Shown here one piece after another: positions 584 through 37,602 of a stretch of DNA of 45,022 nt. The notes beneath the pieces are model-generated. The model searched no databases. It was not told where the DNA came from and saw nothing but the letters and a program-made list of their open reading frames with translations. The translations under genes were made by a program, and so were the position numbers. Within the stretch, counting starts at the first letter, position 1. Each line of letters opens with the position of its first letter. Source of the stretch: Chloroflexota bacterium (lineage in GTDB: Bacteria; Chloroflexota; Dehalococcoidia; SHYB01); contig JACZVV010000010.1 of the NCBI GenBank assembly GCA_022572465.1, forward strand, positions 1-45,022, read 5' to 3'.

Positions 584-635
584 CCGCGCATGGCGGCGGC
601 TAAGATCGGCGTGGACGTTCAACTGATTCGCTAAT

Positions 636-735
636 CCGCCGCGGGCGTCGGCCGGAAATACCGATGTGGCTCAGCCACCTCAGCCGCTGCAACATTGGCC
701 GGAAATACCGATGTGGCTCAGGCGGCTGAGCCGCC
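636..735. repeat. Dispersed GGCTGAGCC repeat, two minus-oriented copies
   Basis: Two copies of GGAAATACCGATGTGGCTCA lie at 654-673 and 701-720, followed by GGCGGCTGAGCCGCC at 721-735. Both copies are in reverse orientation relative to the 54-bp consensus. The block fills most of the 153-base gap between the convergent 131-residue gene and the cupin gene and ends one base from the cupin TGA stop at 737-739. The rest of the gap (584-635) shows nothing recognisable. Confidence 0.85.
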
Positions 736-9353: not shown

Positions 9354-9470
9354 GGTGGCTGAGCCACATCAGTTTTTCCCGCCCAATGTCCCTACGGCTC
9401 AGCCGCCCGGAATTGCTGACCTGGCTCAGCCACCCGCGTGGGCCGGAATACTGCTGCGGCTCAGCCGCCG
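9354..9470. repeat. Dispersed repeat: one full 54-bp copy plus a diverged copy
   Basis: Bases 9354-9407 form a complete 54-bp element starting GGTGGCTGAGCCACATCAG and ending ACGGCTCAGCCGCC. Bases 9422-9470 form a second, diverged copy with GGCTCAGCCACCCGCGTGGG at the left and GCGGCTCAGCCGCC at the right, like the copy at 139-176. Both occupy the argG-maoC gap, 11 bases after the argG stop and just upstream of the MaoC ribosome binding site. Confidence 0.9.
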
Positions 9471-20921: not shown

Positions 20922-21039
20922 CGGCGGCTGAGGTGGCTGAGCCACATCGGCGTTCCCGGGTGGCTGAGCCACGTGAGCGTTCCCGGGTGGCTGAGCCACA
21001 TCAGCATTTCCGGACTAATGTTGCTGCGGCTCAGCCGCC
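20922..21039. repeat. Dispersed repeat: three left ends in 27-bp tandem, one complete 54-bp copy
   Basis: Three units beginning GGTGGCTGAGCCAC start at 20932, 20959 and 20986, exactly 27 bases apart; the first two end in GCGTTCCCG and the third continues through the 26-bp core to GCGGCTCAGCCGCC at 21026-21039, making a full 54-bp element. An isolated GGCGGCGGCTGAG precedes them, starting one base after the EF-G-like TAG stop. The remaining convergent gap (21040-21159) contains a hairpin GTCCCGAC/GTCGGGAC near 21074-21091. Confidence 0.92.
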
Positions 21040-28409: not shown

Positions 28410-28465
28410 GGTGGCTGAGCCACATCAGCATTTCCGGCCCAATGTTGCGGCGCCTCACCAGCCAC
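28410..28465 (+). repeat. Dispersed repeat copy with a degenerate right end
   Basis: It begins GGTGGCTGAGCCACATCAGC four bases after the reductase TAA stop and keeps the TTTCCGGCCCAATGTTGC core, but the right terminus reads CGCCTCACCAGCCAC rather than GCGGCTCAGCCGCC. It separates two copies of the reductase tail-coding sequence. Confidence 0.88.
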
Positions 28466-28693: not shown

Positions 28694-29095
28694 ATGCCCG
28701 TCTACGAGTACACGTGCCACAGCTGCCGCAAGATCGTGAGTATCTTTCATCGGAGCATCTCCTCCCAGGTCGAGGCCGTCTGCCCGAACTGTCAGAGCAG
28801 CGACCTCCAACGGCGCATCTCGCGCGTCATCATCGCCAAGGGGACGCGACGCCACCTCGACGAGATCGACCGGGACCGGCTCATGGGACAGTACGAGGGC
28901 ATCGACAAGGGAAGCCAGGCCTCATGGGCCCGGCGCGTGGCCGGCGAGCTGGGTGAAGCGGGAACCGAGTTCCGGGACATGGCCGAGAAGGTCGAGGCCG
29001 GCGAGGACGTGTGGGACCTCTACGACCCGGCGCCGATGCTCGACCACAAGATCAACGCAAAAAAAGAAGAGCTCTCAGGCGGCGGCGGCGGCTGA
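28694..29095 (+). CDS. FmdB-type zinc ribbon protein
   Basis: The 133-residue protein starts MPVYEYTCHSCRKIVSIFHR and has a second knuckle CPNCQSSDLQRRIS near 31, the four-Cys zinc ribbon of the FmdB putative regulatory family. The remaining ~90 residues are charged and helical (EIDRDRLMGQYEGIDKG), longer than minimal FmdB proteins. Function is not established; regulators and RNA-polymerase-associated roles have been suggested. The last codons GGC GGC GGC GGC GGC TGA lie inside a dispersed repeat, so its poly-Gly end and stop codon come from the repeat. It converges on the cation exchanger gene. Confidence 0.85.
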   Translation: MPVYEYTCHSCRKIVSIFHRSISSQVEAVCPNCQSSDLQRRISRVIIAKGTRRHLDEIDRDRLMGQYEGIDKGSQASWARRVAGELGEAGTEFRDMAEKVEAGEDVWDLYDPAPMLDHKINAKKEELSGGGGG

Positions 29096-29152
29096 GCCGG
29101 TGGCTGAGCCACATCGGTATTCCCGGCCCAATGTTGCTGCGGCTCAGCCGCC
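29084..29152. repeat. Complete 54-bp dispersed repeat shared by two convergent gene ends
   Basis: A GGCGGCTGAGCC end (29087-29098) is followed by a full 54-bp copy at 29099-29152, GGTGGCTGAGCCACATCGGT to GCGGCTCAGCCGCC. The GGCGGCTGA at 29087-29095 gives the last two codons and stop of the FmdB-type gene; the same sequence on the minus strand (29152-29144) gives the last two codons and stop of the exchanger gene. Confidence 0.93.
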
Positions 29153-30400
29153 TCTGGGCTGGGCCAGCGTTCCGATGGATCGCAGGCCCCTGACCACGCC
29201 GCCCACGAGGGCCCACATAGCCTGCCGCCGCTCGCGATTCACCATCAAGATCGTCAGGGAAAGCCCAAGGTAGATCATCGCGAACGTTATCCGGATCGTG
29301 GAGTCGGTGAAGAAGAGCTGGCTGACGAACAGGACGAAGAGCGCCAGGGCGCCACGCCACGAGATGCGCAACGTCACGATCATCAAGATGGCGAAGAGCG
29401 ACTGGGCCGCCGTGAGGAGAAACTCGTCGAGCTGACGGTCGTCGAGGGGGAGGCCTTCCACCGAGCCCAGGTTGATCATATACACCAGCGGCAGCGACCC
29501 CACCAGCAGCGTCCACTGGTTCACCTTCGCCGACACCAGCACCCCCATGGCCATCGTGCCCATGCCGCGAAAAGCGAAGTAGGCCGCGATGCCGATCTCC
29601 GGCGCTTCCGACGCCAGCGGCGCGACCCACTGCACCAGGAAGAACTCGTCGATCCCGATGTCCCTGCCGGTCTCGATGAGGCTGCTGGCGAAGGGCTCGG
29701 CCACGGCGATGATCACCAGGGCCGGAGCGATGAACAAGCCGGCGATGACCGTCCATCTCCGTCCGCGGCTCAGGCGCGTCAGCGCCGCCATGGGCCCGGC
29801 CGCATGCTCGTCGCCGCCGGGTTTGGACCGAGCGCTCAACACGATGTACACGGCGAAGAGCCCGAAGAGCACCGCCGTGTCCACGATGTTCAACGACCCG
29901 TCTAGAAAGTAGGCGCGCAGAAAGATGGTGAAGGCCCAGGCCGTGGCCAGCAGAAGAAAGGTCAGCTCCAGCGTCTGCCGTTTGTCCAGAATCAGCGGTT
30001 TTCGACTCTGCCGGTACCAGAAGATCAGGACCACCAAGGCCCAACCGACACCGATGAGCAACCGGTTGCTCCCAGTCATGTTGGCGGCGGCGTACTGGGC
30101 GAACTGGGGATCGTCGGCCGCCTTCCAGGCGAACACCAGGTCGACGGCGTACTCGGGAAGAATCGCCACCAGAGCGATGAGGGCCAGTGCCAGCGACCTG
30201 GAGATCTCCACCTCGGCCAACTCGCCGCCCGCTCCGAGGAGAAATGCCGCGCCCAGGATAGCGATGCCGTAGAGTGCCGTCTCCACCACCGGCTCGTCGC
30301 TGAAGCCCGTCACCCGAAGCGCCAAGGCGGGCGCCGTCAGCGCCGCAGCGGCGGCAATCGCCAGCCACGGTCCTCTCATGCTGCCCGGAGCTGAGTTCAT
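29144..30400 (-). CDS. CaCA-family sodium/calcium exchanger-like membrane protein
   Basis: The 418-residue protein has about ten hydrophobic helices and the two α-repeats of the cation/Ca2+ exchanger superfamily: GGELAEVEISRSLALALIAL leading into VAILPEYAVDL near 83, and VQWVAPLASEAPEIGIAAYF near 244. Each repeat retains the acidic ion-binding Glu after Pro. It probably exchanges Na+ or H+ for Ca2+; ion choice cannot be read. A long charged cytoplasmic loop (about 195-220) separates the halves. The last residues (PRGG) and stop are within a repeat element. ATG 30400 is weakly supported; Met8 is an alternative. Confidence 0.87.
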   Translation of the reverse strand: MNSAPGSMRGPWLAIAAAAALTAPALALRVTGFSDEPVVETALYGIAILGAAFLLGAGGELAEVEISRSLALALIALVAILPEYAVDLVFAWKAADDPQFAQYAAANMTGSNRLLIGVGWALVVLIFWYRQSRKPLILDKRQTLELTFLLLATAWAFTIFLRAYFLDGSLNIVDTAVLFGLFAVYIVLSARSKPGGDEHAAGPMAALTRLSRGRRWTVIAGLFIAPALVIIAVAEPFASSLIETGRDIGIDEFFLVQWVAPLASEAPEIGIAAYFAFRGMGTMAMGVLVSAKVNQWTLLVGSLPLVYMINLGSVEGLPLDDRQLDEFLLTAAQSLFAILMIVTLRISWRGALALFVLFVSQLFFTDSTIRITFAMIYLGLSLTILMVNRERRQAMWALVGGVVRGLRSIGTLAQPRGG

Positions 30401-33542: not shown

Positions 33543-34709
33543 GTGTACTCCCCCAAGGAACTCAGCAACAAGACGTGTGTCGTCGGCATCGGCGAAACCA
33601 CCTACTCGCGAAAGTCGGGCATGACCGATCTGACGCTGCAGCTCACGGCCGCGATGAGAGCCATCGAGGACGCCGGCATCAAGCCGGGCGACATCGACGG
33701 CATCTTGCCCCAGGCGGCCGGCGCCACGTCGGAAGACTTCGCGACCAACCTGGGCATCAAGGACCTTCGTTACTCGGCCCAGATCAACATGGGCGGGGCT
33801 AGCCCCTGCGCCGCCATCCAGAACGGTGTCTTGGCCGTCGCATCGGGCGTATGCAACTACGTCCTGCTGCTGTCGGGCCGCAACGGCTACTCGGGCGCGC
33901 GCACCGCCCAGTCCATCGGGGCCGGCCTCGGCAGCGGGCCCATGCGTACCATGGGCGAGTTCGAGTACATCTACGGCCTGGTGGCGCCGATGCTCTGGTA
34001 CGGCCCCATGGCGCGGCGCCACATGCACCTCTACGGCACCACCAGCTTGCAGTTCGCCGAGGTCTCCATCGCCATGCGCCGGCACGCCTCGATGCAGTCC
34101 AACGCCCAGATGAAAGACCCCATCACCATCGAAGACCACCAGAGCTCGCCGATCCTGGCCGATCCCTTCCGGCTGCTGGACTGCTGCCTCCAGACCGATG
34201 GCGCGGCGGCTTGTGTGATCACGACGCCGGAGCGGGCCAAGGACCTGAAGAAAAAGCCGGTCTACATCAGCGCGTTCGGCGAGGCCCACCCCGACTCCCC
34301 CAGCTCCATCACCCAGCGGCCCGACATGACCACCTTCGGCATCGCCAAGCTGGCCCCTCGGGTTTTCGAGATGGCCGGCATGACCCCCAAAGACGTCGAC
34401 GTCGCGGAGCTCTACGACTGCTTCACCTTCACCGTGATCAATCAGCTCGAGGACATCGGGTTCTGCGGCAAGGGCGAAGGCGGCCCGTTCGTCGAAGGCG
34501 GGCGAATCCAGATCGGTGGAGACCTGCCGGTGAACACCCACGGGGGCCTGCTGTCCCAAGGCCACATCATGGGCATGAACCACGTCATCGAAGGCATCAA
34601 GCAGGTTCGCGGGTCCAGCGACGTCCAGGTCAAGGACGCCGAGGTCGCCCTGGTGAGCGGCTACGGCGACTTCGGCGACGGCGCCCTGGCGATCTTTAGC
34701 GGGAGGTAA
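33543..34709 (+). CDS. Thiolase-like (SCP-x / lipid-transfer type) acetyl-CoA acetyltransferase family protein
   Basis: The 388-residue product has the thiolase-fold opening KTCVVGIGETTYSRKSG, a Cys in NMGGASPCAAIQNG at the nucleophile region near residue 90, AELYDCFTFTVINQLEDIGF near 284 and the NTHGGLLSQGHIMGMNHVIE loop near 340 typical of the lipid-transfer/SCP-x thiolase group rather than biosynthetic thiolases. It probably acts on acyl-CoA chains or sterol-like side chains; substrate unknown. GTG 33543 has AGGAGG eight bases upstream. It pairs with the DUF35 gene two bases downstream, a pairing these thiolases need for activity in known cases. Confidence 0.9.
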   Translation: MYSPKELSNKTCVVGIGETTYSRKSGMTDLTLQLTAAMRAIEDAGIKPGDIDGILPQAAGATSEDFATNLGIKDLRYSAQINMGGASPCAAIQNGVLAVASGVCNYVLLLSGRNGYSGARTAQSIGAGLGSGPMRTMGEFEYIYGLVAPMLWYGPMARRHMHLYGTTSLQFAEVSIAMRRHASMQSNAQMKDPITIEDHQSSPILADPFRLLDCCLQTDGAAACVITTPERAKDLKKKPVYISAFGEAHPDSPSSITQRPDMTTFGIAKLAPRVFEMAGMTPKDVDVAELYDCFTFTVINQLEDIGFCGKGEGGPFVEGGRIQIGGDLPVNTHGGLLSQGHIMGMNHVIEGIKQVRGSSDVQVKDAEVALVSGYGDFGDGALAIFSGR

Positions 34710-34711
34710 GC

Positions 34712-35137
34712 GTGACCACCACGTCCGAGTACAAAAAACCCATTCCCCGGCCCACCGGCGAGAGCCAGCCGTTCTGGGATTTCTGCAAGAAGCACGAGCT
34801 GCGATTCCAGCGGTGCAGCAAGTGCAACACCTTCAGGCACTATCCCCGCCCGCTGTGCGGCGAGTGCGGCTCTTTCGATTTCGATTGGGTGCAGGTCGCT
34901 CCCAAGGGAACGGTCCACAGCTGGGTGACGGCCCACCGGGCCTTCCATCCCGGCTTCGCGGAAGAGCTCCCGCTGGCCATCGTCATCGTCGACGTCGACG
35001 AAGCGCCGGGCATCCGCATCATGGCGAACTACAACGACGGCACCAAGGCCGACGAGGTCGCCGTGGGCGCTCCGGTCAAGATCGTGTTCGACGATGTGAC
35101 GGAAGAGTTCACCCTGCCCAAGATCGCCCGGGCCTGA
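34712..35137 (+). CDS. DUF35 zinc-ribbon/OB-fold acyl-CoA-associated protein
   Basis: The 141-residue protein has the DUF35 layout: an N-terminal helix, a rubredoxin-like zinc ribbon (RCSKCNTFRHYPRPLCGECG, four Cys) near 34-53, and an OB fold (VQVAPKGTVHSWVTAHRAFH onward) ending in VKIVFDDVTEEFTLPKIA. Such proteins partner thiolase-like enzymes, bringing the CoA substrate. GTG 34712 starts two bases after the thiolase stop, with GGGAGG in the end of that gene as ribosome binding site. Its stop is followed ten bases later by the repeat array. Confidence 0.92.
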   Translation: MTTTSEYKKPIPRPTGESQPFWDFCKKHELRFQRCSKCNTFRHYPRPLCGECGSFDFDWVQVAPKGTVHSWVTAHRAFHPGFAEELPLAIVIVDVDEAPGIRIMANYNDGTKADEVAVGAPVKIVFDDVTEEFTLPKIARA

Positions 35138-35145
35138 TGGCCCGT

Positions 35146-35567
35146 GGCTGAGCCAGTGGCTGAGCCACATCGTTATTTCTGGCCCAATATTGTTGCGGCC
35201 CGGCAGCGTGAGCAACATGGCCATTTCCGGCCTAATGTTGCTGCGGATCAGCCGCCGGGTGGCTGATCCACATCGTTATTTCTGGCCCAATATTGTTGCG
35301 GCCCGGCCGCTTGAGCAACATGGCCATTTCCGGCCTAATGTTGCTGCGGATCAGCCGCCGGGTGGCTGAGCCACATCGTTATTTCTGGCCCAATGTTGGC
35401 TGCGGCCCAGCCGCGTGAGCAACATGGCCATTTCCGGCCCAGGGTTGCTGCGGCTCAGCCGCCGGGTGGCTGAGCCACATCGTTATTTCCGGCCCAATGT
35501 TGGCTGCGGCCCGGCCGCGTGAGCAACATGGCCATTTCCGGCCTAATGTTGCTGCGGCTCAGCCGCC
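35146..35567. repeat. Tandem array of four 103-bp units built from the dispersed repeat
   Basis: Units start GTGGCTGA(G/T)CCACATCGTT at 35156, 35259, 35362 and 35466, spaced 103, 103 and 104 bases; the last ends at 35567. Each unit is two head-to-tail elements: the first keeps a good left end but a degraded right end (GCGGCCCGGC), the second a degraded left end (GCGTGAGCAACATGG) and a good right end (CAGCCGCC). Within the second half AGCAACATGGCC pairs with GGCCTAATGTTGCT (two-base bulge). An extra partial copy lies at 35144-35155. This fills most of the 551-base gap between the DUF35 gene and dxs; 35568-35590 shows nothing. Confidence 0.95.
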
Positions 35568-35590: not shown

Positions 35591-35619
35591 TTGACAGGGT
35601 ATACCCGTTATGCTAGGCT
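35591..35619 (+). promoter_or_regulatory. Putative dxs (hopanoid operon) promoter
   Basis: A consensus TTGACA (35591-35596) is followed after 17 bases by TAGGCT (35614-35619) preceded by TGC as an extended -10. A perfect GGGTATACCC palindrome (35597-35606) lies directly behind the -35 box and is placed for operator use. It is 24 bases after the repeat array. Confidence 0.65.
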
Positions 35620-35688
35620 CCATTGCCATCGTATGCCGAGGTATCGAAAATTGGGTCGCCTCGAAGGCTGGTAAGGAGTCCGTACCGG

Positions 35689-37602
35689 ATGGGACGACTG
35701 CTCGACAGCATCCAGGAACCCGCGGACCTGCGCGGCCTCGACTATCCGGCGCTGGACCGGCTGGCACGGGAGGTCCGGCGGACGATCATCGACGTCATCA
35801 CCCAGCGGGGCGGCCACCTGGCGTCCAACCTCGGTGTGGTGGAGCTCACCATCGCCCTGCACCGGGTCTTCGACAGCCCCAAGGACAAGCTGGTGTGGGA
35901 CACCACCAATCAGTGCTATACCCACAAGCTGCTGACCGGGCGCCAGGACCAGTTCGACACGATCCGGCTGGAGAGGGGACTGTCGGGCTTCGGCGAGCCG
36001 TCGGAGAGTCCCCATGACGTCATGTGCGCCGGCCATGCCGGCACCGGCGTCTCGATGGCGCTGGGTATCGCTCAAGCCGAGAAGCTGCGGGGCGGACACG
36101 CCCGGACCGTGGCCATCGTCGGCGACGGCGCGCTGACGGCGGGCCTGAGCTTCGAAGCGCTGAACAACATCGCTCACCTCGCGCCGGAAAACCTGGTCGT
36201 CGTGCTCAACGATAACGGCATGTCCATCTCGGAGAATATCGGCTTCCTGACCCACTGGCGGCAGCGCATCACCTCGCACCCCGAGTACCAGGCGATGGCG
36301 GCGAGGACCCGCAAGCTCGCGCAGAAGGTCCCCCGCGGGGAGCTGGCCTATCGGCTGGCCAAAAAGTTGAAGGATGGCGTGGAGTCGATCGCCATGCCCA
36401 CCACCCTCTGGCGCGAGATGGGGTTCGAATACATGGGCCCTGTCGATGGCCACGACATCGAAGCCCTGGAGCGCGTGCTCCATCAGGCCCTGGGGTTCAC
36501 CGGCAAGACCCCGCTGATTCACGTCATCACCCAGAAAGGCCGGGGCTATCGCCCCGCCGAGGAAGACCCCGTCAAGTACCACCAACCCGGCTCTCCACTG
36601 GGCGCCGGCTCCGGGGCCCCCACCTACTCCCACGTCTTCGCCCAGACCCTCGTGCGGCTCATGCAGTCGGACCCGAGGGTGACCGGCATCACCGCGGCCA
36701 TGCTGGAAGGGACAGGCATGGTGGAGGCCCAGCGGGCCTTCCCCGACCGCGTCTTCGACGTGGGCATCGCCGAGCAGCACGCGGTGACGATGGCCGCGGG
36801 CATGGCGCGGGCCGGTTACCGGCCCTTCGTGTCGATCTACTCCACCTTCCTTCAGCGCGCCTTCGACCAGATCCTCCACGATGTCTGCATCCAGGCGCTG
36901 CCGGTGGTGCTGGTGGCCGACCGGGCCGGGATCGTCGGCGAGGACGGCAAGACGCACCACGGCGCGTTCGATATCTCCTATCTGCGGTGCCTGCCCAACG
37001 CCGTCGTGTGCGCGCCCAAGGACGAGAACGAGTTCCAGCATCTGCTCTACACCGGGTACAAGCACGCCGGCCCCTTCGCGATCCGGATCGCCAGGGGCAG
37101 CGCCGTCGGCGTTCCGATGGAGCCCGATCTCCGTGAGCTTCCGCTGGGACAGGGCGAGCTGCTCCGGGACGGACGGGACGTCACCATCATCGCGTTGGGC
37201 AAGACGGTCTACCCGGCGCTGGAGGCGGCGCAGAGCCTGGCCGAATCCGGAATCTCCTGTATGGTGATCAACGCGAGGTTCGTCAAGCCGCTGGACCGGG
37301 ACCTGATCGTGCGGACGGCCAGGGAGACGGGCCGCGTCCTGACGGTGGAGGAGAACGTCCTCGCCGGCGGTTTCGGCAGCGCCGTGCTGGAGGCGTTGAG
37401 CGACGCCGGCCTCAGCGACATCCAGGTCGCCAGGTTGGGCATGCCCGATGCGTTCGTGGAGCAGGCCACCGCGGAGGTCCAGCGCGCCAACCTCGGGCTG
37501 GACGCAACCGGTATCGCGGCCAGGGTGCGAGAGCGCTTCTTTCCCGGTATGCTAGCCGTCGAGACCGTGCACGGAGAGGCTGGAGCGGCGGCGCCCGCGT
37601 GA
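35689..37602 (+). CDS. dxs: 1-deoxy-D-xylulose-5-phosphate synthase (divergent)
   Basis: First enzyme of the MEP isoprenoid pathway, joining pyruvate and glyceraldehyde-3-phosphate with thiamine diphosphate. The 637-residue protein has GGHLASNLGVVELTIALHR near 41, the ThDP motif GDGALTAG at 145-152 with NDNGMSIS at 174-181, GIAEQHAVTMAAGMA near 375, and HHGAFDISYLRCLPN near 430. Two usual segments differ: WDTTNQCYTHKLLTGR (instead of WDVGHQ.Y) and AGHAGTGVSMALG (instead of GHSSTSISAALG). ATG 35689 has AAGGAG ten bases upstream. First gene of the operon leading to hopanoids. Confidence 0.92.
   Translation: MGRLLDSIQEPADLRGLDYPALDRLAREVRRTIIDVITQRGGHLASNLGVVELTIALHRVFDSPKDKLVWDTTNQCYTHKLLTGRQDQFDTIRLERGLSGFGEPSESPHDVMCAGHAGTGVSMALGIAQAEKLRGGHARTVAIVGDGALTAGLSFEALNNIAHLAPENLVVVLNDNGMSISENIGFLTHWRQRITSHPEYQAMAARTRKLAQKVPRGELAYRLAKKLKDGVESIAMPTTLWREMGFEYMGPVDGHDIEALERVLHQALGFTGKTPLIHVITQKGRGYRPAEEDPVKYHQPGSPLGAGSGAPTYSHVFAQTLVRLMQSDPRVTGITAAMLEGTGMVEAQRAFPDRVFDVGIAEQHAVTMAAGMARAGYRPFVSIYSTFLQRAFDQILHDVCIQALPVVLVADRAGIVGEDGKTHHGAFDISYLRCLPNAVVCAPKDENEFQHLLYTGYKHAGPFAIRIARGSAVGVPMEPDLRELPLGQGELLRDGRDVTIIALGKTVYPALEAAQSLAESGISCMVINARFVKPLDRDLIVRTARETGRVLTVEENVLAGGFGSAVLEALSDAGLSDIQVARLGMPDAFVEQATAEVQRANLGLDATGIAARVRERFFPGMLAVETVHGEAGAAAPA

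Follow-up and report, generated by a model that had tools for sequence, protein, structure and literature searches.

The window, by which we mean the whole 45,022-nt stretch of DNA that was analysed, belongs to a Chloroflexota draft genome (G000; 2.9 Mb in 160 contigs, 83% complete). In the region considered here, a thiolase gene and a gene for a ChsH2/DUF35-type protein precede dxs in the same direction, and a tandem array separates the DUF35-type gene from the dxs promoter (Table 1). The genes downstream of dxs encode a polyprenyl synthase, a radical SAM protein with DUF3463, a phosphorylase-superfamily protein, an epimerase and a squalene-hopene cyclase, a content that fits a hopanoid cluster; the best named matches of dxs itself are Chloroflexota MAGs, and the class is probably Dehalococcoidia. 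The −35 box of the probable dxs promoter was identified by eye and is absent from the list returned by a consensus promoter scan; a similar promoter is found upstream of dxs in five relatives (G001, G002, G003, G006 and G009). Directly past the promoter, positions 35625-35646 carry a conserved motif, GCCATCGTATGCCGAGGTATCG, which looks like a candidate protein-binding operator of the dxs cluster: a similar GCATCG-N4-CCGAGGTATC occupies the corresponding site in G001, G002 and G003, and is inverted in G009 (L123). The promoter spacer also holds a perfect 10-bp palindrome, GGGTATACCC (35597-35606), which is not conserved in the relatives seen.

Table 1. Genes, array components and other repeat clusters in the window
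Position	Strand	Feature	Basis
627..732	-	cluster of fused elements	
9354..9469	+	intergenic cluster, four monomers	
20932..21038	+	27-bp array: three single units, with one full 54-bp element at its end	
28410..28460	+	element 4 nt past a gene's stop	
29090..29151	+	element between two convergent genes; gene 29144-30313 (-) ends at a hairpin-loop TGA	
33543..34709	+	thiolase gene, before the DUF35-type gene, same direction	Pfam PF22691
34712..35137	+	ChsH2/DUF35-type OB-fold and zinc-ribbon protein gene, stop TGA 35135-35137	Pfam PF01796, PF12172
35144..35156	+	extra partial hairpin GTGGCTGAGCCAG preceding unit 1, 7 nt past the DUF35 stop	sequence; repeat family D2
35156..35567	+	whole four-unit tandem array	TRF and repeat finder
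35156..35258	+	unit 1, 103 bp: half A 35156-35207, half B 35208-35258	
35211..35242	+	unit 1 second-half hairpin	fold, -17.4 kcal/mol
35259..35361	+	unit 2, 103 bp, nearest relative unit 1	
35362..35465	+	unit 3, 104 bp, damaged stem in second half	
35466..35567	+	unit 4, 102 bp, nearest relative unit 3	
35314-35345, 35522-35553, 35418-35449		second-half hairpin: same in units 2 and 4 (first two positions), weaker in unit 3 (last)	
35591..35619	+	probable dxs promoter TTGACA-N17-TAGGCT, 23 bp past the array	sequence; similar in relatives
35689..37602	+	dxs, first gene of the putative hopanoid cluster	Pfam PF13292

A sequence-only reading of the window had described a four-unit array of 103-bp repeats at this place, and both TRF and the alignment of the units bear it out; its location, past the DUF35-type gene and ahead of the dxs promoter, is likewise as described. 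In TRF it is by far the strongest array of the window (period 104, 4.0 copies, 94% matches, score 712). Its four head-to-tail units, of 103, 103, 104 and 102 bp, are 90-97% alike, and each consists of two fused copies of a 54-bp element; counted from the DUF35-type stop codon, a partial copy begins at 7 nt and unit 1 at 19 nt. Units 1 and 2 agree at 100 of 103 positions and units 3 and 4 at 97 of 104, the cross pairs giving 94-96 of 104. Aligned with each other, the two halves of a unit match at only 36-40 of 54-56 columns, well below the same half compared between units (46-50 matches in 51-53 columns), which indicates that the fused pair formed first and was multiplied afterwards, the order that had been proposed. 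The additional proposal that the inner ends of the dimer had decayed stands only in part, since the fused junction, GCGGCTCAGCCGC followed by CTGAGCC, was found again at four other loci (L009, L010, L011 and L013); the junction is therefore not simple decay but largely the usual form in which elements of this family fuse. Four strong hairpins in a row had likewise been announced, and three are there: units 1, 2 and 4 keep the full stem AGCAACATGGCC/GGCCTAATGTTGCT, which in unit 3 is damaged (GGCCCAGGGTTGCT) and makes a weaker hairpin. The predicted RNA folding that the same reading had called for as a check gave -222.6 kcal/mol for the array, far below its dinucleotide shuffles (-175.0 +/- 5.5 kcal/mol; z -8.7). 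At the junction of units 1 and 2 (35242-35272), a paired change affects both arms, GGATCAGCC/GGCTGATCC in place of GGCTCAGCC/GGCTGAGCC, and is either compensatory or the product of a template switch.

We analysed the anatomy of the repeat in 61 fetched stretches holding 287 monomers. The monomer is a mini-hairpin, GYGGC-TGA-GCCRC (5-bp stem, 3-nt loop), followed by a 9-nt tail. Its loop reads TGA in 267 of the 287 copies, and 204 have a perfect 5-bp stem of one of several types, among which GCGGC/GCCGC, GTGGC/GCCAC, GTCGC/GCGAC and GTAGC/GCTAC are compensatory. Two inverted monomers make up the 54-bp element, and a spacing of 27-28 nt separates 63 of the 76 plus-minus neighbours. In an alignment of 34 elements, the mini-hairpin showed covariation in 8 double-changed cells, a value that none of 500 shuffles reached. 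The long 54-bp stem (cruciform) was also tried as a conserved structure and rejected, with 1 double-changed cell, a value reached in 217 of 500 shuffles. The base at the stem foot together with the next three reads CATC in 146 of the 287 monomers, CAGC in 59 and CGTC in 23, and GTAG does not appear among their common flanks. Against Rfam, the best match to a known RNA family scored 23 bits, versus a gathering cut-off of 84.

The array is one member of a large dispersed family. A similarity search over the whole draft found 48 places resembling the array element. The monomer pattern GGCTGAGCCRCAKCARCATT occurs 358 times in the 2.9-Mb draft with up to three mismatches, versus 6 times for the reversed control, and 283 times with up to two, versus 0-2 per genome in 293 other genomes of the class (one genome per species; three are of the same family, and no other member of this genus was encountered). 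The exact repeat pattern was not found in viral contigs. Elements are present singly, as pairs and as tandem blocks. Tandem arrays are numerous among the sampled clusters, with 2-9 copies and periods of 18-148 bp (18, 27, 35, 40, 41, 48, 51, 74, 80 and 104 bp among them), and the array of the window has the top score of those seen. Arrays with periods of 48, 35, 41, 74 and 80 bp lie at L009:1828-2120, L132:2280-2503, L149:2089-2224, L168:1-298 and L141:1969-2147; at L147:1549-1991, ten monomers, nine of them one-way, follow an irregular 48-bp period, a monomer number second to L009 among those sampled. Some arrays stand at contig starts, implying that the repeats probably break the assembly, and the assembled copy number of identical units could be an under-count by the short-read draft. 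Repeat content is uneven: 27 monomers occur in the 45 kb of the window, versus almost none in contigs C1-C6, C11-C17 and C21-C31 (L188-L207), which have a similar base composition, a pattern that comes either from strong clustering by region or from mixed binning. A second contig set, biased against repeats by leaving out the contigs known to hold them, gives 132 monomers per Mb, mostly from the window, a figure that we set aside.

We then related the monomers to genes predicted with our own codon-usage caller, bearing in mind that the 61 stretches were selected for holding repeats, so that the fractions below do not describe the whole genome. Firstly, 271 of the 287 monomers are intergenic, although only 14% of the fetched sequence is. 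A monomer lies between -10 and +30 nt of the stop codon in 58 of 198 genes, and equally near the start in 9. Secondly, at these gene 3' ends the orientation is nearly invariant, the hairpin coming first (sense) in 57 of 58 cases. Singletons are in sense in 11 of 11 cases, and singletons together with one-way clusters in 17 of 18 (P 1.4e-4), implying that the bias does not merely arise from pairs carrying their hairpins on the outside; it could still come from an insertion preference instead of an RNA function. Thirdly, 11 genes take their stop codon from the TGA of the loop. The ending GGC-TGA is found in 19 of 59 genes adjoining elements versus 3 of 142 others (Fisher P 5e-9), and under a stricter edge rule, of 15 genes running into an element, 10 stop in its first loop, where frame alone would predict one third (P 0.0085). 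For gene 29144-30313, which ends at a loop TGA, the orthologues in G001 and G002 align to within ~10 residues of the C-terminus and stop nearby without an element; the element thus arrived at or near the end of the gene and cut off no domain. The same comparison on a second gene returned distant homologues only.

The gap that holds the array can be compared with that of G002, which belongs to the same family but another genus and retains the thiolase-DUF35-dxs order. There, the gap contains a textbook intrinsic terminator, GGCCCCTCCCGCACGCGTGCGGGAGGGGCCTTTTTCTT, and no repeat element, suggesting that the gap is probably a transcription boundary. A scan of the array found no convincing U-tract terminator, its three matches being 5-bp stems with a distant ATTT. 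The array could be a dedicated insulator of the hopanoid operon, an idea that goes back to the sequence-only reading, selected here to keep upstream transcription away from the dxs promoter, and its location past a gene end and ahead of a promoter, its strong predicted folding, the terminator of G002 in the same gap and the highest score among the sampled arrays all speak for this. We consider it unlikely, as the same family is found at dozens of other gene ends and in arrays of other periods, no hairpin is followed by an adequate U-tract, and nothing connects the repeat family to hopanoid genes. Since tandem arrays of many periods recur, the array is a habit of the family and not a device of the hopanoid operon; and since the family abuts the 3' ends of many unrelated genes, the array belongs to the end of the thiolase-DUF35 unit, in whose 3' region it lies, outside the predicted dxs transcript. 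The earlier view, which tied the array to the hopanoid operon promoter, falls on the same dispersal, and the array is probably incidental to the hopanoid genes themselves.

A 54-bp element with imperfect ends, GGTGGCTGAGCC...GGCTCAGCCGCC, could also be a MITE moved by a classical DDE transposase, a reading that we find quite unlikely. Imperfect terminal inverted repeats of ~12-15 bp and a dispersed, lineage-restricted distribution between genes speak for it, but half elements (single monomers) are placed as well as full ones, both ends are hairpins in their own right and carry compensatory changes, and inspection by eye showed no target-site duplication in the flanks, themselves a mosaic of additional copies.

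A broader role was considered as well, in which the hairpin family would be a general gene-end signal, combining a stop codon in the loop with a 3' hairpin, in a genome whose intrinsic terminators have largely been lost. Terminator-like signals were detected in 3 of 137 non-divergent gaps at repeat-bearing loci, versus 17 of 130 in the same-family genomes G001 and G002 (Fisher P 8e-4), and in 4 of 112 gaps of a second, mostly repeat-poor set (Fisher P 0.01 against the same 17 of 130), the window being included in both gap sets. The RNA-binding domain of Rho (PF07497) was not found in the 83%-complete draft and is present in 22 of 25 relatives, an absence from which we conclude nothing, as it may reflect no more than the completeness of the draft. 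We regard this broader role as decidedly improbable.

Very unlikely, in our view, is an element acting at the DNA level, in which the palindrome GYGGCTGAGCCRC would be the site of a nucleoid or regulatory protein and arrays would raise its local occupancy. A perfect small palindrome in high copy number and in clusters would suit such a site; however, the changes to GTCGC/GCGAC and GTAGC/GCTAC preserve pairing while altering the sequence that a protein reads, and the orientation to gene 3' ends is fixed, singletons included. An assembly artefact, the real chromosome having fewer or no tandem units, is scarcely credible: short contigs, some of which begin inside such arrays (C20 and C74), would allow it, but the units are distinguished by substitutions and an indel and are thus not one unit read four times, the flanking gene order is that of G002, and assemblers collapse such repeats more often than they expand them.

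We therefore favour, with a probability of roughly 0.85, the reading that the array is a local amplification within a lineage-restricted, REP/REPIN-like repeat family. We infer that the family is mobile: copies would have spread as a small hairpin-ended element, helped by an enzyme, and at the DUF35-dxs site a fused pair would then have been multiplied via slippage or unequal exchange. Once transcribed, copies would fold into RNA hairpins, shielding the upstream message at its 3' end and reducing read-through, and the array would act as a transcript end, probably a leaky one, where G002 has its intrinsic terminator. On this basis some insulation of the dxs operon by the array is plausible; that the array has a measurable effect on read-through or on the stability of the upstream mRNA is a tentative proposition, which we would sooner doubt than expect.

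Families of this general kind are known from other bacteria. In Pseudomonas fluorescens SBW25, REPINs are inverted pairs of short palindromes, present in hundreds of extragenic copies and also as singlets, with a spacing of 71-110 bp; they also line up in 16 ordered tandem clusters, whose units are almost identical and the largest of which has four REPINs and exceeds 700 bp, and REPIN clusters adjoin all three RAYT genes (PMC3116915). The Chloroflexota family resembles them in having the inverted pair as its main unit, singletons and ordered tandem clusters, and differs in its unrelated sequence, its 5-bp stem with a TGA loop and its 54-bp unit (versus 71-110 bp); unlike in SBW25, a search for a RAYT/IS200 transposase (PF01797) found none in the 83%-complete draft. 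REPs of the GTAG and CGTC types are stem-loops of 20-40 bp, located mainly between convergent or co-directional genes and often less than 20 bp from ORF ends; the termini of GTAG REPs often provide a TAG stop codon, and CGTC REPs, with a stem of 8-9 bp and a loop of 4-5 nt, have no known transposase (PMC3733652). The present repeats are likewise short stem-loops beside ORF ends that supply stop codons, and share with CGTC REPs the lack of a known transposase. Their stop codon is, however, a TGA in the hairpin loop, unlike that of GTAG REPs, and their 5-bp stem and 3-nt loop fall outside the CGTC range; a consensus GTAG or CGTC tag was not found at the end of the 287 monomers, CGTC being a minority form. 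In E. coli, REPs within 15 nt of stop codons are linked to ribosome stalling in work cited in PMC12306157; the family shares with E. coli REP/BIME sequences its hairpins near stop codons and its mosaics of alternating orientation, and differs in its unrelated sequence and in the many copies that contain the stop codon. As in an intrinsic terminator, a hairpin stands at the gene 3' end, but the tail AKCARCATTTCC provides no T run right after it.

A high-copy short palindrome, extragenic and mostly downstream of coding regions at the repeat-selected loci, agrees with REPs in the broad sense, and an inverted pair at a fixed short spacing with ordered tandem clusters agrees with REPINs and BIMEs. 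As the tag is lacking and no RAYT was found, we class the family as a broad-sense REP with REPIN-like architecture, outside the tagged superfamilies. REPIN clusters, REPs at ORF ends and REPs supplying stop codons have all been described, so that the kind is known; this particular hairpin family appears undescribed, our literature search having found no paper that joins 'Dehalococcoidia' with 'intergenic repeats' or 'REPIN', although the family may still be described elsewhere. To the known systems it adds a large and sharply lineage-restricted REP/REPIN-like family from a little-studied group of Chloroflexota, set apart by the absence of the usual tag and of a detectable RAYT, by a near-absolute orientation to gene 3' ends and by stop codons in the loop, and it offers a natural case for asking whether REPs sit at gene ends through an insertion preference or as useful RNA hairpins.
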